Below are positions 37,757 through 57,067 of a DNA stretch of 64,000 nt, in pieces. The stretch is taken from the NCBI GenBank assembly GCA_030710605.1, contig CP092874.1:19315205-19379204 (forward strand), written 5' to 3'. The notes beneath the pieces are model-generated. The model saw nothing but the letters and a program-made list of their open reading frames with translations. It made no database searches and was not told where the DNA came from. This stretch comes from Cordylochernes scorpioides. Its lineage: Eukaryota > Arthropoda > Arachnida > Pseudoscorpiones > Chernetidae. Position 1 is the first letter of the stretch, and every line of letters starts with the position of its first letter. The position numbers and the translations under genes were made by a program.

Positions 37757-38164
37757 TATGAAAAAACAATAGAAAAAAAATAAAAGATAAGTGGGTCAGG
37801 TGTTGATATTAAAAATAAAGAAGACATCTCCTGACCACAAGCACATGTGCTTTTTAGATGGCAGAGCGCCATCTAGTGGAGTAAAAATAAACTAAACGTT
37901 TATTTAGCTTACTCCGAGATATTTGGCCAACCCAATTTCTTGATAAATCAAGAAAAGCCATCCACGAACGCGTTTCGCGCTGTTGGCGCTCGTCAGCGTC
38001 ATATCTCGGAGTAAGCTAAATAAACGTTTAGTTTATTTTACTCCACTAGATGGCGCTCTGCCATCTAAAAAGCACATGTGCTCGTGGTCAGGAGATGTCT
38101 TCTTTATTTTTAATATCAACACCTGACCCACTTATCTTTTATTTTTTTCTATTGTTTTTTTCAT
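37757..38164 (-). mobile_element. foldback hammerhead element, ribozyme in the loop
   Basis: Arms of about 165 bp (37757-37922 and 38000-38164), which pair from aaaaaacaatag through ggtcaggtgttgatatt, acatctcctgaccac and gatggcagagcgccatct. The spacer of about 77 bp contains ttcttgataaatcaagaaaa and the hammerhead core on the minus strand (37961-38000). Stem I of this ribozyme is cut to about 3 bp by the junction. Confidence 0.8.
37961..38000 (-). ncRNA. hammerhead ribozyme, stem I truncated
   Basis: On the minus strand CTGACGA (37990-37996), stem II gcgc/gcgc around caaca, GAAA and CGCGTT are intact, but the 5' strand of stem I reads tgacg instead of ccacg, leaving about three pairs. Probably inactive. 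Confidence 0.65.
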
Positions 38165-38462
38165 GTGTTAAGCGTCTTTACGCAAATTTGGCCTTAAATA
38201 CCCATTTCTTGATTTCTCGGGAAGCCATTGGGTCCAAAAAAAAAAATCTTTTTGGTCGCAGTGGTTACAGCCTTCTCCACGCTGACGAGCGCCAACAGCG
38301 CGAAACGCGTTCGTGGATGGCTTTTCTTAATTTATCAAGAAATTGGGTTGGCCAAATATCTCGGAGTAAGCTAAATAAACGTTTAGTTTATTTTTACTCC
38401 ACTAGATGGCGCTCTGCCATCTAAAAAGCACATGTGCTTGTGGTCAGGAGATGCCTTCTTTA

Positions 38463-38471
<9 letters not shown>
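38000..38471 (+). mobile_element. retrozyme-like hammerhead element, family B (unit 356 bp)
   Basis: A direct repeat of about 115 bp (38000-38115 and 38357-38471; cggagtaagctaaataaacg through gtcaggagatg) flanks one interior with the ribozyme at 38276-38317, so the copy is about 1.3 units long with period 356. That is the expected shape of an insert copied from a circular or multimeric RNA. Interior landmarks shared with family A: ggccttaaatacccatttct, ggtcgcagtgg, gcttttcttaatttatcaag and a gatggcgc/gccatct hairpin. There is no protein-coding capacity. The first direct repeat also serves as the right arm of the preceding foldback. Confidence 0.8.
38276..38317 (+). ncRNA. type I hammerhead ribozyme, family B
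   Basis: Stem I tccacg (38276-38281) pairs with cgtgga (38312-38317), 6 bp. Core CTGACGA is at 38282-38288. Stem II gcgc/gcgc surrounds the loop caaca (38289-38301). GAAA is at 38302-38305. Stem III has only two pairs (A-T and C-G, loop GC), and cleavage is predicted after GTT at 38311. The short stem III is known from hammerheads of Penelope-like elements and retrozymes, thought to work as dimers. The C at core position 7 is tolerated in the family. Confidence 0.85.
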
Positions 38472-38493
<22 letters not shown>

Positions 38494-38784
38494 GTGTAAA
38501 AACTATATAATAAAAATATAACAGTGATTCTATATTTAAAACTCAAGGAGCAAACTGATAAGAATGATAAATCATATCAAGTAGATTTGGTTAGATTATA
38601 TATATAAAGAAAGTTTTTAAACTATTTATATATGTTAATATGTTAAAATTCTAATTTGTGTGTATATGTGACTTAAACTCCTTCGCAATCTTATCTTTTC
38701 GGCAGTAATTATTGTTGAAATAGAAAGAAACAGAGCAGTGAAAAATAGCGCAAAAGTGAAATTGTATTGGGATCAGGTAGAACA

Positions 38785-39010
38785 ATTAAGAAAAAGGCAT
38801 CTTCTGATCGTGCAACTAAAAAACTTGTTAATGGCTTGCGCCATCTGTCGGAATAAATAACAATTAATCATATATTTTTAATTATTCTAGAATTGGCCAA
38901 ATACCCATTCTTGATTAATAAAGAAAATCTAACCACGTACGGGTTTCGGGCTGTTAGCCTTCATCAGCGTGGTGCAAACTGTATCTCGACGACCAAAATA
39001 ATTTAAATAT
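38785..39010 (-). mobile_element. hammerhead element, family A, left part
   Basis: From the left: aaggcatcttctgatcgtgc, atggcttgcgccatctgtcg, aattggccaaatacccattc, the ribozyme (38932-38973), and cgacgaccaaaat. The remainder is displaced by a foldback at 39050-39245. The far end (gatggcacaagccatcagca to gttgcacgatcaggaaatg) is at 39268-39330. Confidence 0.75.
38932..38973 (-). ncRNA. type I hammerhead ribozyme with GTA cleavage triplet
   Basis: Minus strand: stem I accacg (38973-38968) pairs with cgtggt (38937-38932), 6 bp. Core CTGATGA is at 38967-38961. Stem II has three pairs (ggc/gcc) plus a mismatched closing A-C around taaca. GAAA is at 38947-38944, stem III has two pairs with loop CC, and the predicted cleavage triplet is GTA. 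The stem II mismatch may weaken it. Confidence 0.75.
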
Positions 39011-39049
39011 ATACAATTAGTTTCTATTCATGATAAAATTGTGAAAAAA

Positions 39050-39245
39050 AGTATTAAAATTACAAATATATTCTCACAATGAGTATCTTTTTTATTTAAA
39101 CTAGCTTTCAAGCATTATTCGCTCTTCAACGGTGGGATAAAGTCCATATTATTGTAAGCCCGTTGAAGAGCAATTAACGCTTGAAAGCTAGCGTTTTTTA
39201 AATAAAAAAGATACTCATTGTCAGAATATAATCGTAATTTTAATA
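39050..39245. repeat. foldback of a Penelope-type terminus
   Basis: Arms carry acaatgagtatcttttttat and its relatives around ctagctttcaagc ... gcttgaaagctag. On the plus strand CGTTGAAGAGC, the complementary GCTTGAAAGC and a short loop again mimic stem II and the GAAA strand of a hammerhead. It interrupts the family A element. Confidence 0.5.
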
Positions 39246-39464
39246 CAATTAGTTTATTTTTATCCCGATAGATGGCACAAGCCATCAGCATCTTTTAGTT
39301 GCACGATCAGGAAATGTATTTTTCTTAATAAAGAGCGGTGTTAGTTTGGCTATTTCCAATAGTAGAAATGTTTATTAACAATCGTAGAGGGTTAGAGAAG
39401 GCCATCTGTATTCAAAATTAGAAAGTATTTAGCGCGATTATATATTTTTCTAATAATGCAATTT

Positions 39465-39600
39465 CCTACTGCCCTCACTGAAATACTGAGGCTAAACAGC
39501 TTACTATAATATTAGAGATGTATAATGGATTAAACTGGCGAAACCGCTGGGAGGGTTCACTACAGATGAGCTAGGTACTTTCAATAATATCTCGAAAGAG
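39465..39600. repeat. repeat W fragment
   Basis: Has ctactgccctcactgaaata and the core ggattaaactggcgaaaccg, ctgggagggttcac, tacagatgagct. Confidence 0.55.
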
Positions 39601-39955
39601 ACCTCCGCCATACCATCAAAACCCAATGCCTGCAGGAATGGAAATCTAATGCTGCACATATATGACTGGTACAGAGCAGGAGGGACAAGCACCGGTTCTG
39701 TCCTCCCAAGAGAACAGCAGTCTTTGATTTCCAAACTTGAGTCTGGTCATCTACGGACAATGATAGAATGGTTGCAAGGTTTTCCCACTATGTACTAAGT
39801 GTCAACCTGCAACCCCAAGATATATTATTGACTGTATTGACTCATCCATTGATGAACTCTACTCTTCCCCGGCAGACACCATCAACAAGCTTTACAAGCT
39901 TGATACCTTAGTGTGATTGAGTGGAGATAAGAGAGAAGAAGGATAATAATAATAT
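39590..39955 (+). pseudogene. LINE 3' fragment (carboxy end and untranslated tail)
   Basis: The plus-strand carboxy end reads ATPRYIIDCIDSSIDELY, then INKLYKLDTLV and a stop (39914-39916), like the zinc-finger tail of Jockey/I-type LINEs. It is followed by gattgagtggagataagaga and a (TAA)n tail at about 39945-39955. The same 3' end occurs at 58170-58232. The copy is 5'-truncated. Confidence 0.65.
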
Positions 39956-40439
39956 CTAATCGCATTAAAGTCAGTATGAAATTGCTGTATTTGAAAAATA
40001 AAAGAAACAATATCTCTATAAATAATTTAACATTTTGAATTTTTAACAGTTCTATCCGGTTAAGAAATGGATGATTTGCCTTTTAGGAATAATAAAAAAA
40101 ATTGAATGTAATGCTACGACAGGTGCCTTAACAACATAGAATGAGCCTATGCTAACTGCCCGATTCCAGAAATAAACACTAACTAAGAAATGAAGAAGTA
40201 CCTGCTCGCCGCCCCAAAGTTGCATAAGGCATCCTTATTTACATAGGTAAGAAACATCAACGACAACAGACTTGTTTATCTCGGCTTCCTATTGGACGCT
40301 TAGAAGGAAGATATACCTTCCAAAATAGGTGACGTCATCAGAATGTTTAGAAAGTTTCTAATTTGCTCTTGTTTTCTTTCTTTTTTTTTTAAATTCCCAC
40401 GGAATATAGAGTTCGCCGGATACGCATTTCGTGGTTGTT
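39956..40439. other. no feature recognised
   Basis: Mixed sequence with somewhat higher GC around 40190-40330, without a credible frame. It may include more LINE or LTR debris. Confidence 0.4.
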
Positions 40440-40499
40440 GGTCCACACCAATGGCTCAGGCTGAGACAATTAGATATTTTAAAAAGCATAGAAGTAGAA

Positions 40500-40815
40500 G
40501 TTGATGTTGAAGCTCTAAGAGAAAACTGACAAAATCTATAACAAGACTCAGAACAAAACACTATAAAGGAATGACAATACATCCAGATGGCACAAAAACC
40601 TATAGGACATGTAACAATTGTCCTGGTGTGGAATTAACACCTACTCACATATTCTCATGCCCAGCAATGGCCGCAGCCTTGCAGAAAATTGACATGGACT
40701 CAGAACAACAGCTTTACATACCCAAGATAATAGACATTGCTGCTGCTGTGATGAAGATGCATGAAGACATCTGAGGCTCTTCATTGGACACGACAACAAC
40801 AACAAAAAAACATAA
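40500..40815 (+). pseudogene. LINE 3' end, single-copy relative of the 116-bp satellite
   Basis: The frame to the stop at 40772-40774 reads TKHYKGMTIHPDGTKTYRTC, then CPGVELTPTHIFSCPAMA and DMDSEQQLYIPKI. This is the carboxy end of a LINE polyprotein with a C-C-H-C-like finger. The tail cattggacacgacaacaaca then (CAA)n and AAAAA is at 40785-40808. The satellite at 15010-17690 is made of the last part of this region. The copy is 5'-truncated. Confidence 0.75.
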
Positions 40816-40887
40816 CCTCTCGTTGAACTGATATTGTGAAATTGTGATGATTCCTAACAGCTAATTGGCCTGTTTAATCAATAAAAA

Positions 40888-41100
40888 TACACTCATAGAT
40901 AAAACTTATGGAAGTTGTTCTTTTTAACATGTATATCGGGGGATTCAGACAATAACTCTAAAAGATATTACAGTGACCCCTATATTATTGAAGACACCTG
41001 AGATAACCAAGTATGAAAAAAATTGTCTCTGTCTCCTTCAAAAAAATAACAGACGACCGGCGACATCAAAGTGTGTCCACTTATTTTGACCATGAGTGTA
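40888..41100 (+). mobile_element. single-unit copy of the inverted-repeat transposon
   Basis: Left end tacactcatagataaaactt, right end gaccatgagtgta, interior acaataactctaaaagatat and gacgaccggcgacatcaaa. About 213 bp, no internal expansion. Confidence 0.75.
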
Positions 41101-41289
41101 CATATAAACTTGTTCATCAAATTTTTATAAAGATGGGGAAGATAACAATATTTTGTGTGAACTGTAATGACAATCGTGACGTGTGCAGACTTCGGAATAG
41201 GCTGGCCACAATCCATCGGTGTGATAGAAACACTCGATTGGATATTGACTATATATGATATAAAAATAAAAAAGATTTTCTGTCTGAAT
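41101..41289. other. short unique stretch
   Basis: A plus-strand frame (41013-41258) crosses from the transposon into this part without a recognisable motif. Confidence 0.35.
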
Positions 41290-41612
41290 TTAGATCATGT
41301 TGAGGATTATGGTAATGTAGTCGTGGCAAAAATATTTAAAAGAGTTTTAATTAGTGATTTCTTTAATTGAGCTAAGGAATATATATATATAACATAATTT
41401 GGTAAAAGTACTGCCTGGCTTAAGGCGTAATAATCTAAAAAATGAAAAACTTATTTACATAATGTACAAAAGATTTGAGCAGGCCAACGGGAAAGAACAA
41501 CAATGAGTTTTTAAAGGGGAAGCCTGACCTCTGGTGGTCGATTTAACAGAGTATTTGAATCTATGAAATTATAATTTTTTAAATAAGATGATATTTTAAT
41601 ATAACATATATT
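41290..41612 (+). repeat. dispersed repeat X, copy 2 (no insertion at its end)
   Basis: Matches 3590-3912 and ends atataacatatatttg without an LTR element. It therefore shows the empty form of the site used by Gypsy-1 and Gypsy-2. Confidence 0.7.
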
Positions 41613-41865
41613 TGTTTTATTTTTTTAAAATTCAATATGGTAAAAATACAAACGCTTGCGTTGTTCTTTAATGGACGCCACTTCTGCTTTAACAAGACCG
41701 GCAAGCTCACGTGACAATTTGTACATGCGATTTTGTGGGTTATCCACCACCCGTTTGTGCACATGCAACGGCTCTAGAAAGGAAATGAACTGCGCACGCG
41801 TTACCAAGATAACGCTAGGAAGTAAGTAAAAGCCAATAAGACAGGCAATAATAAATATAAAAAGG

Positions 41866-42250
41866 TTTCAGTTGCACGATAAGGAGATGCCTTTTTCATA
41901 ATTTATACACCTTATCCCAGTACAATATCACATTTGTACTATTATTTCACATTGTGTCGCGGTCTCACGCAATTCTGGCCTTAACTACCCGTTTCATGAT
42001 TTTTCAAGATGCCTGAAGGACCAGTTTTTTTTTTTTTTTTTTTGGTCGTTGAGGTACAGCTTGTACCACGCTGATGAGGGCCAACAGCCCGAAACGCGTC
42101 CGTGGTCAGCTTTTCTTGATTAATCAAGAATGGGTATTTGGCCAATTCTGGAATAATTAAAAATCAACGAGAATAGTTGATATTTATTTCGATAGATGGC
42201 GCAAGCCATCAGCAACTTTCAGTTGCACGATAAGGAGATGCCTTTTTCTT
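41866..42250 (+). mobile_element. retrozyme-like hammerhead element, family A (unit 351 bp)
   Basis: A direct repeat of about 32 bp (tttcagttgcacgataagga then gatgcctttttc) lies at 41866 and again at 42217, giving a unit of 351 bp. Inside, in order: ggccttaactacccgtttca, a T-run, ggtcgttgaggtacagc, the ribozyme (42065-42106), gcttttcttgattaatcaag, gggtatttggcca and the gatggcgcaagccatc hairpin. There is no open frame of note. The layout of a little more than one unit fits reverse transcription of a circular or tandem RNA. Confidence 0.8.
42065..42106 (+). ncRNA. type I hammerhead ribozyme, family A
   Basis: Stem I accacg (42065-42070) pairs with cgtggt (42101-42106). Core CTGATGA is at 42071-42077. 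Stem II gggc/gccc surrounds caaca (42078-42090). GAAA is at 42091-42094. Stem III is two pairs with loop GC (42094-42099). Predicted cleavage is after GTC at 42100. Every core base is canonical. Confidence 0.9.
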
Positions 42251-42339
42251 AATAATAAATATAGGTTATAAAAATAAAGGTCACTTCTCCCGTCAAAATA
42301 GACTCTAAAACTAATCGTCATATATTGACCGTCTCCGCA

Positions 42340-42420
42340 AACTAGTGGATTCAGGTCGTTGACAAAGCCACAACACCGGTTTTGGCAAACTGAGAAGCGT
42401 CCACCTAGAGACAATGGTTT
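42340..42420. repeat. short repeat shared with 55849-55960
   Basis: The sequence aagccacaacaccggttttg then gcaaactgagaagc resembles the arms of the foldback at 55849-55960. Function unknown. Confidence 0.35.
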
Positions 42421-42603
42421 CGTGATAATGGCTCTAGTCAGTTTAGAGCGGACTTTATTATTCTGGTTTCATGGCTTTGTCACCGATAGGCTATGTAAAT
42501 ATACCCGGGTATTTGATGTACTGGTATGTAAATAAGTTAAGACGTACATTATGAGAGATGTGACTATTATATTTCTTCCCTTTTTATTTTATTTTTTTAA
42601 TGG

Positions 42604-42735
42604 AGACATCGGTAAACGAGTATTATAAACCGTCGCACACTTTTTTTCTGAAAAAAAAAATTGCTCCAATCTGGTCCCCGATTCCGGTACGCTTTCAAGT
42701 GCAAAAGTCGAACTGCTTTTTACATCTGTAGATAT
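42604..42735 (+). repeat. diverged tRNA-derived SINE, head part
   Basis: Contains cggtaaacgagtattataaa (decayed tRNA-like head), then ttttttctgaaaaaaa and attgctccaa, and tgcaaaagtcgaactgcttt, in the order expected for the plus orientation of the SINE at 54944-55246. It is interrupted at 42735 by a Penelope-type fragment. Confidence 0.45.
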
Positions 42736-42905
42736 TTAAATAAAAAGGCATATATTGGATCAAAATATCATCTATTTTACCAATATTTCAGTTGGCTGAA
42801 CGCCAACCTTTATCAAGGTATTATAAAATATTAATGTGTGTCAACAACAATCTCAGCGCCACATAACGTCAACAGAATTAAGTTTTAAAAATATTTTGTT
42901 ATATT
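42735..42905 (-). repeat. Penelope-type terminal fragment
   Basis: Closely similar to 33640-33800 (aggcatatattggatcaaaa, cagttggctgaacgccaacc). Confidence 0.55.
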
Positions 42906-43184
42906 CAATGAGGAGAAAAAGTTTGATATACGAGATTATATATATTATATTGATTATATTATATTTGTAGCTATATGGAGCACTTACATTTAAAGAAATC
43001 GCCAACTTCTACCCATCATGATTATCATGGACTCGATTGCTAAGGATAACATACAAAAAAGACATCGACTATTTCCTAATGTTGAAAGACTTAAAAAAAA
43101 AAAAAAAAATAGGATACCTATATGTATTACTAACTTTGCAGGAGCCGCCACGTACAGATATCCCCAACTACTGGACTTATTGAC

Positions 43185-43288: not shown

Positions 43289-43291
43289 TAT

Positions 43292-44709: not shown

Positions 44710-45046
44710 TGTTGCACCAGGTTGCGGCTTGGCAGACTCTTCAGCCTTGATTCTCTCCTGTGCTGGGTCTTGCATCTTACCAGAGCGTGTTTCAACCATC
44801 CTACAAATTTATATAAGGGAATAATGAGATAAGTCTACTTTAAGTAACCTCCAGAATGCTTTATTTATTTTCTCACATCAAAGAGAGCAGTGAAGTCACA
44901 GTGTACCTAAATACAAATGATGATAATCTAATCTGTTTTAAATAAATATCATAGAATATTTTATATAAAAATAAATAAATATATAATTTAAATTTCAAAT
45001 ATATTAAAAATAATATAAGAAATACGCCATTAATCATGATGTAACA
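44710..45046 (-). repeat. 3' LTR of Gypsy-2
   Basis: 337 bp, matching 49568-49904. The pol stop (45030-45032) lies inside it, and the copied gag start region is at 44710-44799. Confidence 0.93.
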
Positions 45047-48000
45047 CTTCCCCCTCTCCAGAGGTCGTCACGTCCTCGTGATTGACCTCATCAATTCTTT
45101 CAAAATAGGGTTTGATTCTTGAGATATGGACAATCAATGGGTCTTGGCCAGGATTATCTTTTGGTTCAATTAAGTAATTTACGTTGGACAGCTTCTTTAA
45201 TATTTTATATGGGCCAAAATATTTTCTCAGTAATTTCTCACACTTTCCTATTTTCCTAATTGGTGTCCAAACTGCTACTAATTCTCCTGGTTCGTAGCTT
45301 CTTTCCATGTGTTTCTTGTCATAGTTCTTTTTCATTCTTTCTTGAGTCTTTATTGTGTTGTTAATAACTAATTTTCTTGTTCTGTTTATTTTGTCTAAGT
45401 GATGTTTTATGTATTCATCATAATCATCCTTGTCAATGTCCACCGAGATATTCCTGTCGTCCAAAAGAGACGTGGGTTCTCTTCCAAACATCAGGAAAAA
45501 GGGAGAATATCCTGTGGTTTCCTGAATTGTAGTATTGTAAGCGTGAGTGATGAATGGGAGTATTTCGTCCCAATTCTTCTGATCAGTGTTCACATACATA
45601 CTGAGCATATTGATCAATGTTCTATTTAACCGCTCTGTCAATCCATTAGTCTGGGGATGATAGCTCGTTGTGAAGCAATGTTTAATCTTGCACGTTTTCA
45701 TCACCTCTTTCATTAAATTACTGGTAAATTGAGAGCCTCTGTCACTAATAAGATATTGTGGGGCTCCGTGCCGGAGAAAAATATCCTCTACTAGAAATTT
45801 TGAAACTTCTTTCACTGTTGCTTCCGAGACTGCTTTTGTTTCTGCATATCTAGTGTAGTAGTCCGTCAGCACGATTATCCATTTTTTCCTGTTTTTCGTA
45901 GATGGCAATGGACCAACAAAGTCAATTCCAATTCTTTCGAAAGGAAAGTTGGCTGGGGGAATGGGCTGTAGTAGTCCAGAAGGTAATTGGTTTGAGCCTT
46001 TTCTACTTTGGCAAAGATGACACGTCTTAACGAACTCTGAGACATCCTTTAGCATGGATGGCCAAAAGTATTTACTCTTTATTCGGTACATGGTTCTGGC
46101 GACACCCAGATGGCCATTCGACATATGATTGTGATATTCTTTCATAATGCCTCTCTTTTTCTTCTCTGGTACCACAAGCAACCACGCCCTGCCTTCAGGG
46201 TTCGGGTTCTTCTTAAAGAGGCATCCATCTTCTACTTTAAAGTTTTGCGCAATTGATCGCCTGCTTCCATTAAGGTTTTTCTTAACACTTTCGATAAACT
46301 TATCCTCTTCGTCTGTTATTTGATTTAAAAATAGCCTTTCAAAATCCTCATCCCAATCAGTTTCTGGTAAGGGTCCCCTAGATAAGCCATCGGCGTCCAG
46401 ATGTTTCTTTCCTGATTTATGTATTATATCGAAGTCATATTCTTGAATTTTCAATGCCCATCTTGCCAATCGACCTGTTGGATCCTTCAAGTTTTTGAGC
46501 CAGCATAAGGCGTGGTGGTCTGTTACTATTTTAAAGTGTCTTCCATAAAGGTAGGGTCGTAATTTTGACATTGACCAGACAACGGCCAGACATTCTTTTT
46601 CAGTGGTTGAATAATTTTGCTCCGCTTTACTTAGGGTACGACTCAAATATGAGATCACCTTCTCTTCACCACCGATGTCTTGGACAAGTGTTGCACCTAT
46701 GCCGATGTTGGACGCATCAGTATGAACATAAGTAGGTGCATTTGGATTGAAGTGACCTAAAATTGGTGGACTTAATAGTGCTGTTTTTAGGGTTTGAAAC
46801 GCTTCCTCTTGTCTTTCTGTCCAGATAAATGATACACTTTTTTTTATAAGGTTGGTCAAAGGGTCAGCAATTTTTGAGAAGTCTTTGATAAATTTTCTAT
46901 AATATGAACACATTCCCAAAAAGGATTGTACTTCTTTGACCTTTTTGGGCCGAGGGAAATTTCTGACAGCTTTGATGTTATGTTCCGCGGGTTTTATACC
47001 ATGTTTGCTCGTTATATAGCCGAGAATCTCCAATTCTTCAAAAGCAAATCGGCATTTTTTGTCGTTTAACCTTAAATTAGATTCACGAAAACATCTAAAA
47101 ACAGCTTCAAGTCTTTTGAGGTGCGTTGGAAAATCCGGGCTATATATGATAACATCATCCAGATAACACAAACAAATTTGCCATCTCAGATTTCCAAGCA
47201 TATTCTCCATATTTCTCTCAAAGGTAGCAGGCGCGTTACAAAGTCCAAAAGGCATCACGTTGAATTCATATAATCCATGTGCTGTAGTGAAAGCTGTTTT
47301 CTCTTTGTCTCTTTCTTCGACTTCAACTTGCCAATATCCAGATCTCAGGTCTATTGCTGAGAAGTGTGTAGATCCTTGGAGAGTATCCATAACTTCGTCT
47401 ATTCTAGGGATCGGATAGACATCTTTTACTGTCACATTATTCAGTTTTCTGTAGTCCACACAAAATCTGTATTTACCATCTCGCTTCTTGACCAATATTA
47501 CTGGAAAAGACCAGGGGCTAGAAGATGGCCTAATTATGCCTTCTGTAAGCATCTCGTCAATTTGCTCTTTTATAATATCTCGTTCTTTAGCACTTACCCG
47601 GTAAGGCTTGTGTTTAATTGGCTTCGCGTCTTCTGTGTCTATCCGATGTTTTGCCAAATTGGTTCTCCCTAATCTCGACGAAAAAAGATCTCCATACCTT
47701 TCTAAAACTTGTTTTAACTCCTTCTGTTCCTTTGGTGAAAGATTTTCGTTTATTTGGAATCTAGGTTCTTTGTTCTCTTCTACCTCTCTTTCTCGACTCA
47801 CATTTATTTTCGCTGGACTACTTCCAAAAGCCAATGTTTGGTTTTTCATTATTTTTAACGGTCGAGGATACGGATTAGTTATCCAGATGTGTGTTTCCCT
47901 ATTTATAACATTGATCAAGCTTCTTGCTAGACGAAGTCCATTTGTTTGAAACATTTTGCTGCTCTCCTCGATAATATATTCTCCATCCTCTGTTTCTACC

Positions 48001-48437
48001 AATGCCTTGATCAATTTCATGGAACATTCCGGTACAATGGAATCCTTGGCACTCTTTATTTTCAACATTTCAAAATTGATTTCGTCATGATTATTCGTCA
48101 AATCGTATTTGATAGTTTCTTGCTTACAATCTATTTTTGCGTTCATTTTCTTAAGGAAATCTCTCCCAAGAATTAATGTCCGTAAATGCGTTTTCAATAT
48201 CACAAAGTTGTGTGATAATGTTTCGTCATCAATTTTTATATTTAAAAATATACTTCCTACCATGTCCAATTTTTTTCCATCGGGTCCTGCACAAATTTTT
48301 GCGAGTTTACTTATACCATGGCCTGTATCGAGGGCCGTTCTGAGGTCGACCACTGAGAGGTCAGCACCTGTATCAACCAAAGCTTCAAAAGTCCCTATCT
48401 TGTCCACGTTAATTTTTAATTTGTATTTAGGGTCCAA
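45030..48437 (-). CDS. pol: Gypsy-2 Pol polyprotein
   Basis: 1135 residues, uninterrupted. Protease ALVDTGADLSVVD (catalytic D at about residue 22). Reverse transcriptase RKRDGKYRFCVDYRKLN-type core, with LCYLDDVIIYS (YLDD at about 425). RNase H with HTDASNIGIGATLV and TEKECLAVVWSMSKLRPYLY. Integrase with HLGVARTMYRI ... CHLCQSRK, the core IGIDFVGPLP, LISDRGSQFTS and GLTERLNRTL, and a carboxy-terminal GPY/F motif (YFGPYKILKKL). It lies in the -1 frame relative to gag. The Met at 48437 is only the first ATG; the protein is probably made as a Gag-Pol fusion by -1 frameshifting. The last codons run through the polypurine tract into the 3' LTR. Confidence 0.95.
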   Translation of the reverse strand: MDPKYKLKINVDKIGTFEALVDTGADLSVVDLRTALDTGHGISKLAKICAGPDGKKLDMVGSIFLNIKIDDETLSHNFVILKTHLRTLILGRDFLKKMNAKIDCKQETIKYDLTNNHDEINFEMLKIKSAKDSIVPECSMKLIKALVETEDGEYIIEESSKMFQTNGLRLARSLINVINRETHIWITNPYPRPLKIMKNQTLAFGSSPAKINVSREREVEENKEPRFQINENLSPKEQKELKQVLERYGDLFSSRLGRTNLAKHRIDTEDAKPIKHKPYRVSAKERDIIKEQIDEMLTEGIIRPSSSPWSFPVILVKKRDGKYRFCVDYRKLNNVTVKDVYPIPRIDEVMDTLQGSTHFSAIDLRSGYWQVEVEERDKEKTAFTTAHGLYEFNVMPFGLCNAPATFERNMENMLGNLRWQICLCYLDDVIIYSPDFPTHLKRLEAVFRCFRESNLRLNDKKCRFAFEELEILGYITSKHGIKPAEHNIKAVRNFPRPKKVKEVQSFLGMCSYYRKFIKDFSKIADPLTNLIKKSVSFIWTERQEEAFQTLKTALLSPPILGHFNPNAPTYVHTDASNIGIGATLVQDIGGEEKVISYLSRTLSKAEQNYSTTEKECLAVVWSMSKLRPYLYGRHFKIVTDHHALCWLKNLKDPTGRLARWALKIQEYDFDIIHKSGKKHLDADGLSRGPLPETDWDEDFERLFLNQITDEEDKFIESVKKNLNGSRRSIAQNFKVEDGCLFKKNPNPEGRAWLLVVPEKKKRGIMKEYHNHMSNGHLGVARTMYRIKSKYFWPSMLKDVSEFVKTCHLCQSRKGSNQLPSGLLQPIPPANFPFERIGIDFVGPLPSTKNRKKWIIVLTDYYTRYAETKAVSEATVKEVSKFLVEDIFLRHGAPQYLISDRGSQFTSNLMKEVMKTCKIKHCFTTSYHPQTNGLTERLNRTLINMLSMYVNTDQKNWDEILPFITHAYNTTIQETTGYSPFFLMFGREPTSLLDDRNISVDIDKDDYDEYIKHHLDKINRTRKLVINNTIKTQERMKKNYDKKHMERSYEPGELVAVWTPIRKIGKCEKLLRKYFGPYKILKKLSNVNYLIEPKDNPGQDPLIVHISRIKPYFERIDEVNHEDVTTSGEGEVLHHD

Positions 48438-48493
48438 CTTCTTGATTCCGTTTATGGTCGACTTGCTTTGATTGACAGATTCAGGCGCGACGC

Positions 48494-49657
48494 TTAGTTT
48501 AAATCTTCCAACACGGAATATCTATTCCGGGTAGGAATATTTGTCTGCGTGTTATGACATACATCGGCATAAAGCCGAGGTCCTGATTTCTCTGATATTT
48601 CATTCATTTGGCATTTCTCTTCGACCTTCTCTTGGGTATCTGCTGGATCCTCTTCTAAGATTCTTATAAACTTGACCCTACAATAACGGGCCACGTGCCC
48701 TGGCTTGTTACATTTAAAGCAGATTGGTCTCCCGTCTTCTGTCCTATTCCTAATTGAATTTGGATTCTTATTGTATGTTTTACTTGGGTAGACCGGTTTT
48801 GGCTCAGGATTAGGAGTGTAAGATCGTCTAGGGGCAGATACCTGGGGCAGAGGTTTGTCCTGGTAGTACCTCGGAGTGGGGGCCTGGGGCTTGGAGGTGT
48901 TCTGGTAGTACCTCGGAGCGGGGGCCTGGGGCTTGGAGGTGTTCTGATATGGTCTTCTGAACGACGTAGCATTCTTCCATTGCTCTTGATGATGGGGACG
49001 AGGAGAGCGTGGTCCATTATATAGAGCTTTTGATTTTTCTGCACGTTCTTGGTAATTCTTTTCGAACAAATCCAGCTTCTTACAAATTTCTAGGAGTTCA
49101 TTGGTATTTTTAGGAGGGTTTAGGTGAAGGGCAAAAGAGTATTCTTTCTTTAACCCTCCAATAACCCAGTTTATTTTAGTCTTTTCTTCCATTTGGGGGT
49201 CGACCTTGTTGCACAGTACAAGGATATCCTCTGCGAACCTGATTGCAGGTTCATTCCACTGTTGCATCCTGTTTAGTTTCATCTTAATTTCTTCTTTGTT
49301 GGCGTCTGAGGCAAAATCCTCAATTAGGCGGCTCTTGAAATTTTCCCAGCTGGTGAAACTTATCTTGTGTAGGTTCAGCCAGGTTTTGGCGCTACCAATC
49401 ATATTCATGGCAGCATAACGAGAGATAATGTAGTCTGCCCAATGGTACAGGAAGCCAATTTCTTCAAGAGATTCAATCCATGGGCGAGGGTCTTCCGTTC
49501 CATCATACTTGGGGATGTCGATGTTGGGATTCAGGACAACTGGGTCGGAACTAGCATCTCTACCAATTGTTGCACCAGGTTGCGGCTTGGCAGACTCTTC
49601 AGCCTTGATTCTCTCCTGTGCTGGGTCTTGCATCTTACCAGAGCGTGTTTCAACCAT
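48494..49657 (-). CDS. gag: Gypsy-2 Gag, start inside the 5' LTR
   Basis: 387 residues starting MVETRSGKMQD at 49657, about 90 bp before the inner edge of the 5' LTR, so the first 30 residues are LTR-encoded and the primer-binding site is within the coding sequence. Capsid-like region about residues 45-200 (YDGTEDPRPWIESLEE, WLNLHKISFTSWENFKSRLI). A duplicated proline-rich repeat (NTSKPQAPAPRYYQ and variants) lies at about 228-265, and one zinc knuckle, CFKCNKPGHVARYC, at about 311-324. A TATA-like tatataa lies only about 15 bp upstream of the first ATG, so the second Met (49633) could be the real start if that box is used. Confidence 0.9.
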   Translation of the reverse strand: MVETRSGKMQDPAQERIKAEESAKPQPGATIGRDASSDPVVLNPNIDIPKYDGTEDPRPWIESLEEIGFLYHWADYIISRYAAMNMIGSAKTWLNLHKISFTSWENFKSRLIEDFASDANKEEIKMKLNRMQQWNEPAIRFAEDILVLCNKVDPQMEEKTKINWVIGGLKKEYSFALHLNPPKNTNELLEICKKLDLFEKNYQERAEKSKALYNGPRSPRPHHQEQWKNATSFRRPYQNTSKPQAPAPRYYQNTSKPQAPTPRYYQDKPLPQVSAPRRSYTPNPEPKPVYPSKTYNKNPNSIRNRTEDGRPICFKCNKPGHVARYCRVKFIRILEEDPADTQEKVEEKCQMNEISEKSGPRLYADVCHNTQTNIPTRNRYSVLEDLN

Positions 49658-49904
49658 CCTACAAATTTATATAAGGGAATAATGAGATAAGTCTACTTTA
49701 AGTAACCTCCAGAATGCTTTATTTATTTTCTCACATCAAAGAGAGCAGTGAAGTCACAGTGTACCTAAATACAAATGATGATAATCTAATCTGTTTTAAA
49801 TAAATATCATAGAATATTTTATATAAAAATAAATAAATATATAATTTAAATTTCAAATATATTAAAAATAATATAAGAAATACGCCATTAATCATGATGT
49901 AACA
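49568..49904 (-). repeat. 5' LTR of Gypsy-2
   Basis: 337 bp matching 44710-45046. It includes the gag start codon and a TATA-like box at about 49670-49676 (minus strand). Confidence 0.93.
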
Positions 49905-51010: not shown

Positions 51011-51069
51011 TAAAAAGTGCATTAAGATGAAGTTTTAGCTTTATCATTTTCTTATAATAAAGGTAATAT

Positions 51070-51717: not shown

Positions 51718-52416
51718 ATAAAAAGTTTTTTTATTTTTTTATTTTGGATGTGCGTATTATTATAATGTTTTTCAATTGATGCCCTACACTTTCTCTTTCA
51801 CTTCTTTTTTAAAGTCAATATTGTTTATAAAAATTTAATATATAATTAAAAGGTATCTTTAATTTCTCTTTATACTTCGTGGTATGATACAAAATAAAAT
51901 AAAGACTATTATTTAAACATTTGATTTAGATTTTTTTAAGGGATTAAAAATCCAATTCCCCTTTTTTTTATTATTATTTTTTAAAGTTTGTTTTGAAACC
52001 TGAACAAATAGCCTCTATATCTCGAAAATAAGTAATTAACTTTTTAATTATCTATGACTCTATTTACATATCCCATTTAAATATCTATTTTCTATCCATC
52101 ACACCGATACATTTACATAAATAATGTTTTCTATTCCATTTTACAAGTCATCAAGGCAACGCTAAAGTTTTGCTGGTTCTTTTTTACATCCTCTCTTTCT
52201 TACTTGTGTTGGAAAAATTAAATAAAAAACAAATTGGAAACAATTCTAACCTTTAATAAAATGTTGGTTTGACCTTTTCTAACACTTTTCAATTTTATAT
52301 TACAACTCCCGTAATATACTGATTCCTTATTATCTTTTTTTTTTTTTTAGAATTATCTATACTATATATATGTGTGGTTTTTGAAAATAGAGCAATTCAT
52401 AAATAAATCTTTAATT
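51718..52416. other. AT-rich DNA, no feature recognised
   Basis: No frame or repeat end stands out. Confidence 0.45.
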
Positions 52417-52590
52417 AAAAAAGACATATATTGGATCAAAATATAATTTATTTTACCAATATTTCAGTTGGCTGAACGCCCTTGATATATAACACCATAA
52501 TGTTATAATACCTTGATAAAGGTTGGCGTTCAGCTAACTGAAGTATTGGTAAAATAAATGATATTTTGATCCAATATATGTCTTTTTAAA
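52417..52590. repeat. palindromic Penelope-type terminus
   Basis: Two inverted copies of the 33640/42735 sequence meet at a short centre (cttgatatataacaccataatg): gacatatattggatcaaaat faces its complement at 52556-52585. Arms are about 75 bp. Confidence 0.65.
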
Positions 52591-52669
52591 TTAAATATGC
52601 ATGTGTGTGTGTTATATACAAATTATTTGATTTAAAATTATATTGTTTTATAATACAAAACTACTCTGT

Positions 52670-52925
52670 AAGGTTGACCGCCAGACGTTGCGGCTTTCCC
52701 TATATAAACCTATTAGTTGTTGTTTCCCGTTGGCCGTCTCAAATATTTCTGTAGATATGTAAATAAGTCTTTTATTTTTTTTTCATTCTTCTCGCCTTAA
52801 GTAAGGTAATACTTCCTCAAATTATGTATTCAATATCTCTTTAGCACAATTAAAGCTAATTCTGATCTAAATTATTTTTATCATTCTGTTCACGACTGCA
52901 TTTCAATATCTCAATAATATTCCAA
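52670..52925 (-). repeat. dispersed repeat X, copy 4
   Basis: Reverse complement of the X consensus (gttgttgtttcccgttggcc, cgccttaagtaaggtaatac, cacgactgcatttcaata), lacking the AT-rich end. Confidence 0.6.
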
Positions 52926-52959
52926 AATCACCAGAAATAGTTTTTGTAATATATATATA

Positions 52960-53252
52960 TGTAGTACAGGCCATGATAATCATGGTGGTTGGAAGTTAGC
53001 GATTGATAATTTACTGTAAGTACATCACGTGTCTACATATGTTAGAAAGCAGTTCGACTTTTGCGATTTGAAAATGTGCCAGAGCCCCATTTGGTTACTT
53101 GTTTGGTTACTCAATGGTGGGGTTAGACTTTTTCAATAATTAGGGGCCATTGAAGCAACTTTTTTTTTTTTCAGAAAAAAGTGTCCAATGCGGGATTTGA
53201 ACCCGCGTCGTGGTTGTCGAAAATCGACAGTTTATACCAATCTTCCACCGAC
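52960..53252 (-). mobile_element. tRNA-derived SINE
   Basis: Nearly full length. On the minus strand a tRNA-like head (B-box-like gggttcaaatcccgc, complement at about 53194-53208) lies at 53182-53252, followed by the TTTCTGA/T-rich linker and the body (tgtaagtacatcacgtgtct, gccatgataatcatgg). Tail sequence is lost. Confidence 0.75.
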
Positions 53253-53442
53253 CTTCCAGTTTTTTCTTAACTTTACATATTTAACTTGAAAGAGAACTAT
53301 CACAAATTGTAGATATTGCTTTATCCTCTCTCTCTCTCTATATTATATTTATACATCGTTGGATATATATAGAATTGAAGAAATACACTCATGGACAAAA
53401 CTTGAGGAAGTTGTACCTTTTACCATGTATATCGGGACAATA

Positions 53443-53684
53443 AAGCAGAGCGCCATCTAGTTGAACAGAAATCAACTAAACATTGATTTAGCCTGTTCCC
53501 TGATATTTGGCCAACCCAGTATTTTGATAAATCAAGAAAAGCCATCCACGAACGCGTTTCGCGCTGTTGGCGCTCGTCAGCGTGGAATAGGCTGTACCTC
53601 TGCGACCAAAAAGATTTTTTGCTCCCAGAGGCTTCTTGAGAAACCAAGAAATGGGTATTTAAGGCCAAACTTGCTTCTATATCC
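53443..53684 (-). mobile_element. hammerhead element, family B, single partial unit
   Basis: From the left: agcgccatctagttgaacag, ggccaacccagtattttgat, agaaaagcc, the ribozyme (53545-53586), cctctgcgaccaaaaag and ccaagaaatgggtatttaag. It lacks the long direct repeats and is nested inside the older transposon. Confidence 0.75.
53545..53586 (-). ncRNA. type I hammerhead ribozyme, family B
   Basis: The minus-strand sequence appears the same as the copy at 38276-38317: stem I tccacg/cgtgga (6 bp), CTGACGA, stem II gcgc/gcgc with caaca, GAAA, two-pair stem III, predicted cleavage after GTT. All core elements are intact. Confidence 0.85.
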
Positions 53685-53970
53685 TTAAAAAAAACGGACG
53701 ACCGGTGATATCAAAGACTTTCCATTTCCATAAGTTTTGTCCGTAAGTTTATATATAATTTTTATATTTGTGTGTCAAATTATCTTTCAATGCTACAAAA
53801 AAGGATATTTCGGAGAGAGAGAAAGAGAATCTCTATGTAATTACAAATTGAATCGATTTTCTCCGAAAGCTCTATCTTTTTTTCAGAACATTGAAATACG
53901 CGCACATTTGGCATACACAAAGGTAAGAGTATATGGTCATCTTGTTGTTAGTGTCCATCAAGTTCGAATT

Positions 53971-54737
53971 TTGGTGACTATATGGTGACAAATATTCTCC
54001 AATTTGATCTGTTAGTGACCATCACTCTCATCTAGTGACCTTCTGGTAGCTTTCTTGACCTCTTCTAGCCAGCTTATTGCAGGTCTTCCTCTCTTCCTTT
54101 GGTGACTATATGGTGACAAATATTCTCCAATTTGATCTTTTAGTGACCATCACTCTCATCTAGTGACCTTCTGGTAACTTTCTTGACCTCTTCTAGCCAG
54201 CTCATTGCAGGTCTTCCTCTCTTCCTTTGGTGACTATATGGTGACAAATATTCTCCAATTTGATCTGTTAGTGACCATTACTCTCATCTAGTGACCTTCT
54301 GGTAACTTTCTTGACCTCTTCTAGCCAGCTTATTGCAGGTCTTCCTCTCTTCCTTTGGTGACTATATGGTGACAAATATTCTCCAATTTGATCTGTTAGT
54401 GACCATTACTCTCATCTAGTGACCTTCTGGTAACTTTCTTGACCTCTTCTAGCCAGCTCATTGCAGGTCTTCCTCTCTTCCTTTGGTGACTATATGGTGA
54501 CAAATATTCTCCAATTTGATCTTTTAGTGACCATTACTCTCATCTAGTGACCTTCTGGTAGCTTTCTTGACCCCTTCTAGCCAGCTTATTGCAGGTCTTT
54601 CTCTTTCCTTTGGTGACTATAGGGTGACAAATATTCTCCAATTTAATCTGTTAGTGACCATCACTCTCATCTAGTGACCTTCTGGTAACTTTCTTGACCC
54701 CTTCTAGCCAGCTTATTGCAGGTCTTTCTCTCTTCTC
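53971..54737 (-). repeat. 128-bp satellite derived from a LINE coding end (6 units)
   Basis: Units start at 53971, 54099, 54227, 54355, 54483 and 54610 (period 128, last step 127). On the minus strand a unit encodes KRGRPAISWLEEVKKATRRS and, after a shift, RSNWRIFVTI and a stop. That is the typical carboxy-terminal sequence (GRP..W..DV...W) of LINE reverse-transcriptase proteins. Copies differ at a few positions (for example gacctcttc / gaccccttc). Confidence 0.8.
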
Positions 54738-54940
54738 CTTCTACCTACAATTTAAAAAAGTGTATTTACATCTTAATTTATATATCAAACAATATTTTAA
54801 AAAACATTTTCGGCTTAAAACACTTGAAAAACATATTTTTATGTATCAAATGAAGAACCTCTCCCTTTATTTGCACATCAAAACAATTCACTGTGTGCAA
54901 CAATAACGATACCCCAGTAGAATACTTCACTAGTTTTTTT
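54738..54940. other. unique stretch
   Basis: Crossed by a 70-codon frame (54694-54906) starting in the satellite, with no motif. Confidence 0.35.
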
Positions 54941-54943
54941 TTT

Positions 54944-55246
54944 ACTTATCCCTAGTACACGTGGTACAGGCCATGATAATCATGGTGGGTAGAAGTAGGC
55001 GACTGCTTTTACTGTAAGTACAGCACATATCTAGACATGTGAAAATCAGTTCGACTTTGCACTTACAAATGTGCCAGAACCCCGTTTGATTACTTGCACT
55101 CACTGGTGGGGTTGGACTTTTGCAAGAATCGGGAGCCATTGGAGCATTTTTTTTTTTATCAGAAAAAAGTGCCCAATTCGGGAATCGAACCCGGGTCTTA
55201 GTGGTCGAAAACCAACGCTTTAGACCATCCTTCCACCGACCCCCGA
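54944..55246 (-). mobile_element. full-length tRNA-derived SINE
   Basis: On the minus strand: tRNA-like head at 55168-55246 (A-box-like ggaaggatggtctaaagcg, B box gggttcgattccc at about 55179-55191), a linker with aaaaaagt/ttctgat, the body, the palindrome ccatgattatcatgg (complement near 54972) and an end ctagggataagt followed by poly-A (T-run 54934-54942). This copy defines the family; partners are at 11455, 42604/43185, 52960, 57577 and 60013. Confidence 0.8.
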
Positions 55247-55254
55247 CTTCACTA

Positions 55255-55817
55255 GTGATTTATTTATTTATTTATTTATCAAATCAGACGCGATATCCCT
55301 ACAAGGGATGCTTGCGTCAATAACAACACTAAATTCAGATACTATATTACATTAAAAAAAATTAAATAATTACAAGATTTGAAAAGATAAGAAAGAGGAC
55401 ATTAAAATCATTCTTGATTTTACATCACAACCAACAAAATAAATAAACCAAAAGGTGCCCAATCTTCCAGAACTACAGAAACCGGGAAAACATCGAATAC
55501 AAGGATCTTTTTATGTTTGTAAATAGTAAGGACTCGTATTTTAAATTTAGAAAATTCTGTAAATATATCTATGATTTTCTCTCTTGGTTAAAAAAAACCT
55601 TAATTATTACCTATTTGTATATTTTTGGTTTGTTTATATTGTTGGTTGTGATGTAAAATCAAGAATGATTTTAATGTCCTCATTCTTATCTTTTCAAATC
55701 TTGTAATTATTTAATTTTTTTTTAAATGTAATATAGTATCTGAATTTAGTGTTGTTATTGACGCAAGCATCCCTTGTAGGGATATCGCGTCTGATTTGAT
55801 AAATAAATAAATAAATG
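55255..55817. repeat. foldback of a LINE 3' end
   Basis: Outer arms begin (ATTT)n then gacgcgatatccctacaagg at 55257-55320, and mirror at 55752-55817. Arms of about 170 bp include aagaatgattttaatgtcct and its complement. The spacer, about 55440-55640, is single-copy. Confidence 0.7.
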
Positions 55818-55848
55818 TTACTTCTACTTCACTAGTGATTGATAAAGA

Positions 55849-55965
55849 ATGATCCACAACACCAGTTTTCGGCAAACTCAGACAATATGCAAACCTGTAT
55901 ACCATTATTTCGGGCTTTCTGCCTGAGTTTTCCTAAACTGGTGTTGTGGCTCATTCTTTTTTTAC
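55849..55965. repeat. small foldback
   Basis: Arms of about 38 bp: gaatgatccacaacaccagt and actggtgttgtggctcattc. Related to the piece at 42340-42420. Confidence 0.55.
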
Positions 55966-56154
55966 GATAATTAGTAAAGTTTTTTATTAGGATGATGCAC
56001 AGTGCATCGTTCGGATGCATAACTAAAGGGAGAGGTTCTTTTTTTTATATACATGAATATGATTAAATTAAATTTGATGGCCATCTATCGTTAAAATTTT
56101 ACACAAATAAATTTACTGGCAATGCGCTTCTTTTAAATATCACCAAATATTATC

Positions 56155-56360
56155 TCTACAGACCTTACTGCAATGATACGAGGTATTGAATGAGAGGGCT
56201 TGGCTCATCAGCAGTGAACCCTCTCAGCGGTTTCGCCAAATTAATCTCTAGACCGCTCTACGATTGTATTGGATTGGTTTGGAATATACCCTGTATTTTC
56301 TATGGAAGGCAGCTTAGGGCTGTTTAGTGAACTATGGACATAAGCTTATAGGTCTGTAGA
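56155..56360. repeat. repeat W copy
   Basis: Contains ccttactgcaatgatacgag, ttggctcatcagcagtgaac, ctcagcggtttcgccaaatt and ctagaccgctct. Confidence 0.6.
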
Positions 56361-56384
56361 GGTACATACATACATATTATTTCA

Positions 56385-56577
56385 AGGTATTTTTTGTTTT
56401 GTTTTTTCTTGCTCCCCTCTTTCTCTTTCTTGTTTTTTTTTTTTCTTTTTCTTCTGTCTATATCGGTATTTTCTTTGTCTCACTGCTTTGTTCTTATGCA
56501 TACCTCTGGTGAATCCTGTATAGGGTCAGTGACCCTAAATAAAGGCTTTTTGTTGTTGTTGTTGTTGTATAATTTCA
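56385..56577 (+). repeat. LINE 3' end with (TTG)n tail
   Basis: Ends ctgtatagggtcagtgaccc, taaataaaggctttt then (TTG)n at about 56551-56568. It is the reverse complement of 43292-43440. 5'-truncated. Confidence 0.65.
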
Positions 56578-56688
56578 AGGTATTGCTTCGAGCAAAGCTC
56601 TTCCGCAAAATGAATATGATTCTCCGCAACTTTATACTGTACATATTTCTATATAAATACTTAATATATTAGTCTCGGTGAAAAAAAC

Positions 56689-57067
56689 TTTCAGTTGCAC
56701 GATAAGGAGATGCCTTTTTCTTAATATATGCACCTTATCCCAGTACAATATTACATTTGTACTATTTTTTTTTCATTATGTCGCGGTCTCACGCAATTCT
56801 GGCCTTAACTACCCGTTTCATGATTTTTCAGGATGCCTTAATGACCAATTTTTTGGTCGTTGAGGTACAGCTTGCACCACGCTGATGAGGGCCAAACAGC
56901 CCGAAACGCGTCCGTGGTTAGCTGTTCTTGATTAATCAAGAATGGGTATTTGGCCAATTCCGGAATAATTAGAAATCAACGAGAATAGTTGATATTTATT
57001 CCGATAGATGGCGCAAGCCATCAGCAACTTTCAGTTACACGATAAGGACATGTCTTTTTCTTAATAT
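56689..57067 (+). mobile_element. retrozyme-like hammerhead element, family A (unit 340 bp)
   Basis: The direct repeat tttcagttgcacgataagga at 56689 recurs at 57029 (tttcagttacacgataagga), giving a 340-bp unit with the same internal order as 41866-42250. Right-hand repeat mutations (ttacac, ggacatg, gtctttt) show independent decay. No open frame. Confidence 0.8.
56876..56918 (+). ncRNA. type I hammerhead ribozyme, family A
   Basis: Stem I accacg (56876-56881) pairs with cgtggt (56913-56918). CTGATGA is at 56882-56888. Stem II gggc/gccc has a 6-base loop (caaaca), one base more than at 42065. GAAA is at 56903-56906, stem III has two pairs, and predicted cleavage is after GTC at 56912. All core bases are intact. 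Confidence 0.88.

Follow-up and report, generated by a model that had tools for sequence, protein, structure and literature searches.

Double-ended retrozyme insertions in the pseudoscorpion Cordylochernes scorpioides and their likeness to Penelope-like elements

How does a repeat of about 350 bp come to be copied throughout an animal genome when its units (336-356 nt, with tandem copies present) are too short to encode a reverse transcriptase (RT) or a GIY-YIG endonuclease? The question is raised by a window of 64,000 nucleotides of Cordylochernes scorpioides, meaning the whole stretch of DNA analysed here, in which two retrozyme families are represented, family A, with units of 350-356 bp, and family B, with units of 336-351 bp; exact copies of their cores number 7,610 and 8,819, respectively, in the genome of this species. 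According to the original prediction, repeats of about 340-356 bp each carry one hammerhead and are retrozyme-like, with a type I ribozyme of a known class, and this reading was supported, as were the proposed periods (about 355-356 at 38000/38356, 351 at 41866/42217, and 340 at 56689/57029). What is new here is the anatomy of the insertions, with paired outer ends at two fixed sites.

A strict hammerhead descriptor (CTGANGA, stem I of 5 bp, stem II of at least 4 bp, GAAA, a stem III pair, and TH) gave four matches in the window, with cores at 38282, 42071, and 56882 on the plus strand and at 53580 on the minus strand, while 200 dinucleotide shuffles of the window gave none. All three predicted repeats were among the matches, and their ribozymes are as follows.

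38257..38335, plus strand: hammerhead ribozyme of insertion A2, core CTGACGA at 38282, cleavage triplet GTT
42050..42126, plus strand: family B hammerhead ribozyme, core at 42071, cleavage triplet GTC
56858..56938, plus strand: family B hammerhead ribozyme, core at 56882, cleavage triplet GTC, fold z -2.44

In the Rfam search of the window no hammerhead reached the gathering score; below that cut-off, HH9 (RF02275) matched three of the four strict-descriptor ribozymes, at 56863-56935 on the plus strand (35.2 bits, E 3.7e-5), 38266-38331 on the plus strand (28.5 bits, E 0.0053), and 53531-53596 on the minus strand (28.0 bits, E 0.0081). Many sub-threshold miRNA matches in the same database are taken for palindrome noise. 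When folded alone, the ribozymes had z values from -2.44 to +0.38, and the minimum-energy folds of those at 42050 and 38257 were not hammerheads. The retrozyme hammerhead is of type I with stem I open, 92% of the cells in its alignment are paired, and its covariation score exceeds all 500 shuffles, although as high a count of changed pairs occurs in 204 of 500 shuffles.

The outer ends of the insertions do not lie at the cleavage site. One site, T1, is found within a hairpin loop about 155-160 nt downstream of the cleavage site, and the other, T2, lies 43-45 nt beyond T1, about 200 nt downstream. The hairpin of family A reads GGTCAGG...CCTGACC. Among five sequences, the covariation score of the T1 hairpin was reached by 11 of 500 shuffles and its changed-pair count by 72 of 500. 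The hairpin and the copies of the window are listed below.

56701..56739, plus strand: putative RT-start hairpin of family B, GATAAGG...CCTTATC, T1 site in the loop
37758..38471, unstranded: family A insertion A2, two arms meeting head to head at junction 37999/38000
37758-37999, minus strand: A2 minus arm, T2 end at left
38000-38471, plus strand: A2 plus arm, 1.33 laps, T1 end at right
about 37514..37744, unstranded: family A short insertion A1, T2 left, T1 right, without a hammerhead
27897..28108, unstranded: family A short insertion A3, T2 left, T1-like end right (read by eye)
41866..42253, plus strand: family B insertion of 1.1 laps with its right end at T1
56679..57067, plus strand: family B insertion, T2 remnant followed by a 1.1-lap plus arm ending at T1
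53445..53674, minus strand: D, diverged A-like copy, 86% to A, hammerhead core at 53580
38738..39003, minus strand: C, diverged B-like copy, degraded hammerhead at 38967
10536..10785, plus strand: A-like relic
10800..11046, minus strand: B-like relic
14170..14306, plus strand: E, 3' piece of a B-like copy, carrying the T1 hairpin
13662..13876, unstranded: degraded B-like relic in two opposed pieces, about 13662-13765 minus and 13781-13876 plus

The repeat at 38000-38471 had been correctly credited with a hammerhead, but it is not a whole element, being only the plus arm of a larger insertion that spans about 37758-38471 and is built head to head; the minus arm of that insertion (37758-37999) holds a hammerhead core truncated at its 5' side (37996-). 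A 124-aa stop-to-stop frame spans the lap boundaries at 38050-38424, and an (AT)n stretch sits between A2 and the adjoining A1. By eye, A3 is flanked on either side by TTAATAACT, the insertion at 41866..42253 is bordered on both sides by AATAATAAATATA, and that at 56679..57067 has a short T2 remnant, TGAAAAAA, at about 56679-56687, with the flanks TATTAGTCTC and TATTAGTTTC. Two further ribozymes had been proposed: the copy at 53545, here joined to a piece of a 123-bp satellite, bears a strict match (core 53580, minus), but the copy at 38932 is a degraded B relative whose core (38967, minus) fails the descriptor. Relics indicated at 10530-11090 are indeed present and could be refined to two copies lying tail to tail.

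Across the genome, 40 candidates were scored per search and the best-scoring loci were taken, so the sample favours long, young copies; merging of overlaps reduced 60 loci to 53 rows. The window's own B copy (L001) fell outside the filter, L018 duplicates L009, L035 and L037, with a common left flank, possibly represent a single insertion, L031 combines the window's two adjoining A insertions, and the left end of L032 is a neighbouring piece misread as truncated. Two head-to-head arms with RNA 3' ends pointing outward and duplicated flanks were seen in 37 of the 53 rows. Ends were T1 plus T2 in 33 rows and T2 plus T2 in none, 18 rows had one end truncated or unclassified, and the two T1 plus T1 rows are both one segmentally duplicated insertion; these 18 rows and that insertion count against strict pairing. 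Distinct insertions with both ends so classified number 34, of which 33 carry one T1 and one T2 end. The pairing was retested without requiring a full unit, on the first 100 T1 places and 55 T2 places of the same C1 stretch. Within 3 kb, this gave 12 outward T1/T2 pairs (two of which look like one segmental duplication), no T2/T2 pair, and one outward T1/T1 pair, at a nested site that also yields one same-strand T1/T2 pair.

Among the first 100 listed places, orientations were eight diverging, none converging, and one tandem in family A, and eight diverging, one converging, and 12 tandem in family B. The string shared by the two flanks averaged 13.6 nt versus 10.4 nt with mispaired flanks (0 of 1000 as high), target-site duplications of more than 4 bp are present, as in metazoan retrozymes, and the flanking DNA looks mostly AT-rich. 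In family B, variability is higher in the T1 and T2 regions (0.040 and 0.038) than elsewhere in the unit (0.025), which counts against these sites; family A shows no such excess.

The window also contains traces of Penelope-like elements (PLEs).

981..2156, plus strand: Penelope-like reverse transcriptase fragment, candidate helper class
37400..37434, minus strand: PLE pLTR piece with a hammerhead-like motif (read by eye)

In this genome, all eight PLE insertions read at both ends (seven of family P1, one of P2), which were chosen for full-length geometry, have the same end pair as the retrozymes, one end between the hairpin arms and the other just beyond the hairpin, with the two sites about 24-33 nt apart versus 43-45 nt in retrozymes. 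Among the first 100 listed P1 places, 39 were diverging, none converging, and four tandem, and the P1 ORF has RVT_1 and a sub-threshold GIY-YIG match. The comparison rests on P1 and P2, since the hammerhead-like motif was absent from 10 of 10 421-bp pieces upstream of other PLE matches, including one (L100) in which the ORF start is present. Sequence homology between the retrozyme T1-T2 module and P1 was not supported (598 of 2000 shuffles as good for A, 717 of 2000 for B); in four earlier module tests, 40 of 1000 shuffles were as good for A against P1, and 120, 600, and 507 for the others. Neither was a recognition sequence common to retrozymes and families P1 and P2 found. The likeness is consequently one of layout only, as no sequence similarity was significant.

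This layout has precedents. In the parts of the literature considered here, the PLE "tail" was explained in 2024 by two internal reverse-transcription start sites, with both strands extended, AT-rich targets, and a signature termed unique to PLEs (PMC11167929); Poseidon of Anolis, like the retrozymes, has two adjacent internal start sites and a hammerhead, with a tail of 30-40 bp (43-45 nt in retrozymes). Penelope of Adineta vaga shows inverted pLTRs, one with a tail, and 8-10 bp duplications where present (PMC3846280), and PLEs resemble the insertions described here in inverted plus tandem arrangement and short duplications, while their AT-rich targets may have a parallel in the flanks seen here (PMC11167929; PMC3846280). 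Membership in PLEs proper is ruled out, because PLEs encode RT and GIY-YIG endonuclease and the units do not. The non-LTR retrozymes of Metazoa (Cervera and de la Pena, 2020, PMC7229834) share the type I hammerhead, form tandem multimers from units of about 170-400 nt, and show duplications of more than 4 bp. In contrast to that account, which leaves the helper open in the portions considered and whose main text lacks the words "inverted" and "head-to-head", the copies found here are double-ended and head to head, with two fixed paired end sites. The published passages considered name PLEs merely as candidate helpers of retrozymes. Plant LTR retrozymes likewise have a hammerhead, lack RT, and are described as spreading via circular RNA, but their hammerhead is of type III and lies in LTRs, with PBS, PPT, and a Ty3-gypsy helper (PMC7761336; PMC11722881), so the type I hammerhead rules out this identity.

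Since head-to-head double ends with the "tail" signature point to PLEs as the likely machinery, we consider it probable that Penelope-like machinery copies these units, as non-autonomous metazoan retrozymes, from circles with T1/T2 starts. Multi-unit loci would be transcribed, the type I hammerhead would cut the RNA to unit lengths, probably as a dimer because stem III has only two pairs, and the unit-length RNAs would be ligated into circles. A PLE protein, probably dimeric, would bind the circle at its hairpin pole, the end opposite to the ribozyme, and would nick both strands of an AT-rich target about 10-12 nt apart. Reverse transcription would be primed inside the RNA, at T1 (the hairpin loop) on one strand and at T2 on the other, each reverse transcriptase travelling 0 to more than 3 laps round the circle. 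The two cDNAs would then be linked through their 5' ends in head-to-head orientation, which would leave T1 and T2 on the outside and the target site duplicated.

Arms extend to 3.37 laps (lap lengths exclude three arms with broken lap order), which fits the reverse transcription of circular or multimeric RNA predicted earlier. Mismatch in family B was 1.15% within the same arm, 0.97% to the other arm, and 3.06% between insertions; the family A values (0.63%, 0.29%, and 0.72%) are no test of the one-template point. The 5' ends were not enriched within 6 nt of the cleavage site (A 2/44 and B 0/41, 1.6 expected in each). A circular template fits these patterns, given the multi-lap arms, the closer family B laps within insertions, and the unenriched 5' ends. 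Circular folds of the units had z values of -8.2 and -8.4 (0 of 200 shuffles as low), and in 12 of 107 pairs of the fold both partners had changed, a count reached in 7 of 500 shuffles; slid versions gave 1-9. Separately, 5' ends clustered just before T1 (15/44 in A and 14/41 in B for the best window of 35 nt; as high in 0 and 8 of 2000 uniform draws, respectively), but this signal was set aside because loci chosen for a full unit favour arms just over one lap.

Alternatively, PLE machinery could copy a linear multimer transcribed from a genomic array, the hammerhead being irrelevant to copying, which we regard as unlikely. Tandem loci do exist, such as C1:5965536-5966922, where five exact B cores are spaced at 338 bp, and two laps of a single arm disagree at 14 positions in one insertion (L019) and at 18 in another (L003), a heterogeneity that favours this explanation and implies that jumps or mixed multimers, or age, occur. 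Moreover, the parts of PMC11167929 considered here report that the Anolis PLE works on unprocessed RNA in vitro, where hammerhead cleavage is not needed, hammerhead mutants still insert, and start sites show no strand difference. Against it stand the covariation in the hammerhead and in the circle-closing structure, and family B laps and arms closer within than between insertions, although arrays of identical laps would give the same.

Target-site duplications and 5' truncation also occur in LINEs, and could suggest that LINE-type machinery mobilises the elements, with ordinary target-primed reverse transcription starting at the RNA 3' end; this is very improbable, as each of two intact ends is an RNA 3' end located at one of two fixed internal sites and the same end pair is seen in PLEs of this genome, the comparison having covered PLEs. 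Satellite-like repeats that carry hammerheads as passengers and multiply through DNA recombination (unequal exchange, inversion) would suit the tandem units, the palindromes, and the other satellites of the window, but this is scarcely credible when the dispersed places number in the thousands, have fixed ends and, in those examined, show duplicated flanks.

Returning to copying of retrozyme circles by Penelope-like machinery, a common replication mode is possible, and we put it forward tentatively: a PLE dimer on a single hammerhead-made circle would produce T1 and T2 cDNAs, one per target strand, both rolling round that circle, so that retrozymes would be the minimal form and PLE hammerheads would exist for circle-making. 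Retrozyme ends, in thousands of copies, bear the fingerprint of PLEs, whose own insertions in this genome show it as well, and retrozyme insertions may serve as a natural record of how reverse transcription by PLEs begins and terminates on the two strands.

The repeats of this window (C12:19315205-19379204, in an assembly of 2.62 Gb) that the original prediction had read as retrozyme-like elements carrying hammerhead ribozymes were confirmed, and fall into two families, A (unit of 350-356 bp) and B (336-351 bp). A strict descriptor identified four hammerheads in the window, against zero in 200 dinucleotide-shuffled versions of it. Among seven window copies, 92% of cells in the structure were paired and the covariation score exceeded all 500 shuffles, with three of 16 pairs altered on both sides, a number that 204/500 shuffles reach. 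The cleavage triplet is GTT in A and GTC in B, and within each family the hammerhead varied less than the remainder of the unit (0.0044 vs. 0.0077 in A; 0.0154 vs. 0.0246 in B). Since stem III has two pairs and a two-base loop inside the self-complementary ACGCGT, a dimeric hammerhead form is likely here; dimers have been reported for axolotl retrozymes (PMC7229834). The window also contains the following features.

4108-8932, plus strand, Ty3/gypsy-like element (frames, named by eye)
45030-49666, minus strand, Ty3/gypsy-like element (frames, named by eye)
22934-26974, minus strand, Copia-like element (frames, named by eye)
60913-61741, minus strand, Tc5/pogo-type transposase (DDE_1, HTH_Tnp_Tc5)
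63247-63333, plus strand, tRNA gene carrying an insert close to its anticodon loop (ARAGORN, which gives no definite anticodon)
57874-57928, plus strand, weak twister-P1 match (37.2 bits, E 1.7e-4, gathering 67.2)
1-823, 2813-3131, 19536-20265 and the 53450 region, recurring satellite of ~121-123 bp, joined to the 3' side of a diverged A-like copy (53445-53674, minus strand)
39050-39246, foreign near-palindrome, arms ~81% alike, adjoining a diverged B-like copy (38738-39003, minus strand)

For each family, 30 loci with 1.5 kb of flanking sequence were retrieved and mapped onto the unit (53 rows). In 37/53 rows two arms, one minus and one plus, were joined head to head with their RNA 3' ends facing out. 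Except in one locus (L055), the outer 3' ends of head-to-head insertions were all located at one of two fixed sites, T1 (..TTTATTTTTAATA in A, ..TTTTTCTTAATA in B) or T2 (..TTGTTTTTTTCAT in A, ..GTACTATTTTTTCA in B), the latter 43-45 nt beyond T1, in the next lap of the unit. T1 was paired with T2 in 33 of the 53 rows and with itself in two (one duplicated insertion), T2/T2 was never seen, and 18 rows had a truncated or unclassified end. Read by eye, some truncated ends concealed a very short second arm, such as TTTTCA in L002, and the window copy at 56679 begins with TGAAAAAA, a T2 end of ~8 nt. A second test on contig C1, for which presence of a full unit was no condition, agreed with this pairing: of the outward pairs lying within 3 kb, 12 were T1/T2 (two of which resemble a single segmental duplication) and one, at a nested site, was T1/T1; T2/T2 pairs were absent. 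Among the first 100 places listed for each family, exact ribozyme cores with neighbours within 2 kb were diverging, converging and tandem in 8, 0 and 1 cases for A, and in 8, 1 and 12 for B.

The string common to both flanks of the 33 insertions averaged 13.6 nt, against 10.4 nt for mispaired flanks (0/1000 as high). Fourteen strings passing a TA-repeat filter measured 7-14 nt, including up to 4 nt of the element end (e.g., TATAGAAGCG in L005). In a one-ended insertion (L020:1458-1952), the flanks are alike over ~25 nt with a few mismatches (by eye), longer than the usual short duplications.

T1 lies in a hairpin loop, and the arms of this hairpin co-change between families (GATAAGG/CCTTATC, GATCAG/CTGATC, GGTCAGG/CCTGACC). 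Across five sequences, 97% of cells were paired and 2/7 pairs altered on both sides; the score was reached in 11/500 shuffles and the pair count in 72/500. In family B, the T1 and T2 regions had variabilities of 0.040 and 0.038, above the remainder of the unit (0.0246). Folded as circles, the majority units gave -111.4 (A) and -114.7 (B) kcal/mol (z of -8.2 and -8.4; 0/200 shuffles as low); the predicted structure places the ribozyme and the T1 hairpin at opposite poles. In seven copies, 12/107 pairs of this fold were altered on both sides; slid versions gave 1-9, and as high a count was obtained in 7/500 shuffles, in a comparison biased in favour since the structure was drawn from one aligned copy.

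Regarding the RNA template, 5' ends were scattered across the unit with no enrichment at the cleavage site, and arms passed through this site for up to 3.37 laps (unit lengths); therefore, the cleaved linear monomer was not the template. A ribozyme-made circle is the simplest source, but a linear multimer may have served instead. In family B, laps of the same insertion differed by 1.15% within an arm and 0.97% from the other arm, against 3.06% between different insertions, as expected if a single RNA served both strands. The family A values (0.63%, 0.29% and 0.72%, respectively) discriminate little, and laps were heterogeneous in L019 and L003.

Genome-wide, exact 35-nt ribozyme cores numbered 7,610 for A and 8,819 for B, with no match for reversed controls, and counts of exact A ends running into TA repeats were 2,343 (T1) and 1,311 (T2). 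Five exact B cores are spaced at 338 bp in C1:5965536-5966922, more laps than in any measured arm. Judged from the low mean lap difference between insertions (0.72% in A, 3.06% in B, among fetched loci selected for similarity to the window copy), both families are young.

Genomic counterparts of features described for Penelope-like elements (PLEs) were recognized in these retrozymes. A PLE protein cleaves AT-rich DNA and extends both strands; its reverse transcription begins at two neighbouring sites inside the RNA, and this accounts for the tail of PLE copies, a signature that the abstract calls unique to PLEs (Frangieh et al., 2024; PMC11167929). In A. vaga, the pLTRs of Penelope copies are inverted and one of them carries a 31-bp tail; duplications, where present, are of 8-10 bp (PMC3846280). 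The strict T1-T2 pairing suggests a different start site for each target strand; in the in vitro study, no such strand difference was observed (PMC11167929).

The reverse transcriptase fragment at 981-2156 is part of a large PLE population, of which 150 of 11,955 candidate matches were scored; in many of these a frame of 785-801 codons is open. Two families were distinguished, P1, whose ORF has an RVT_1 match (E 2.3e-8) and a sub-threshold one to GIY-YIG (E 0.0026), and P2, with an RVT_1 match only. The P1 pLTR pattern had 440 exact genome matches; 38 of the 42 P1 matches scored were 96-100% identical and four 90-91%. P1 neighbours within 6 kb, among the first 100 places listed, were diverging in 39 cases, converging in none and tandem in four. 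The canonical hammerhead core is CTGANGA; 5' of the start codon, both families carry a hammerhead-like motif (CTGT[AC]GA, a stem and GAAAGCTCGT) followed by a hairpin, ATCTTCC...GGAAGAG. This candidate motif reads CTGTAGA or CTGTCGA (L083:690-714, L082:3118-3142, L081:2928). Insertions chosen for full-length geometry were read at both outer ends on contigs C22, C12, C7, C21, C11, C24 and C17 (P1) and C2 (P2), and at one end in a ninth (C14). In 8/8, one outer end fell between the hairpin arms and the other just beyond the hairpin, ~24-33 nt apart. By eye, flanking duplications included TAATAGTTCGC at C7 and TTTAAAATAT at C21.

PLEs were proposed in 2020 as strong candidate helpers from common hammerheads, tandem copies and co-occurrence (PMC7229834; PMC7761336), a candidacy restated in a 2024 review (PMC11722881). 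Full-text literature searches, mostly at title/abstract level and no proof of absence, returned no report tying retrozyme ends to the PLE tail, and no paper combining 'pseudoscorpion' with 'hammerhead ribozyme'; the words 'retrozyme' and 'circular' are absent from the main text of PMC11167929. In brief, A and B represent new families within a known class, and the advance lies in the double-ended anatomy of their insertions and its tie to the PLE machinery.
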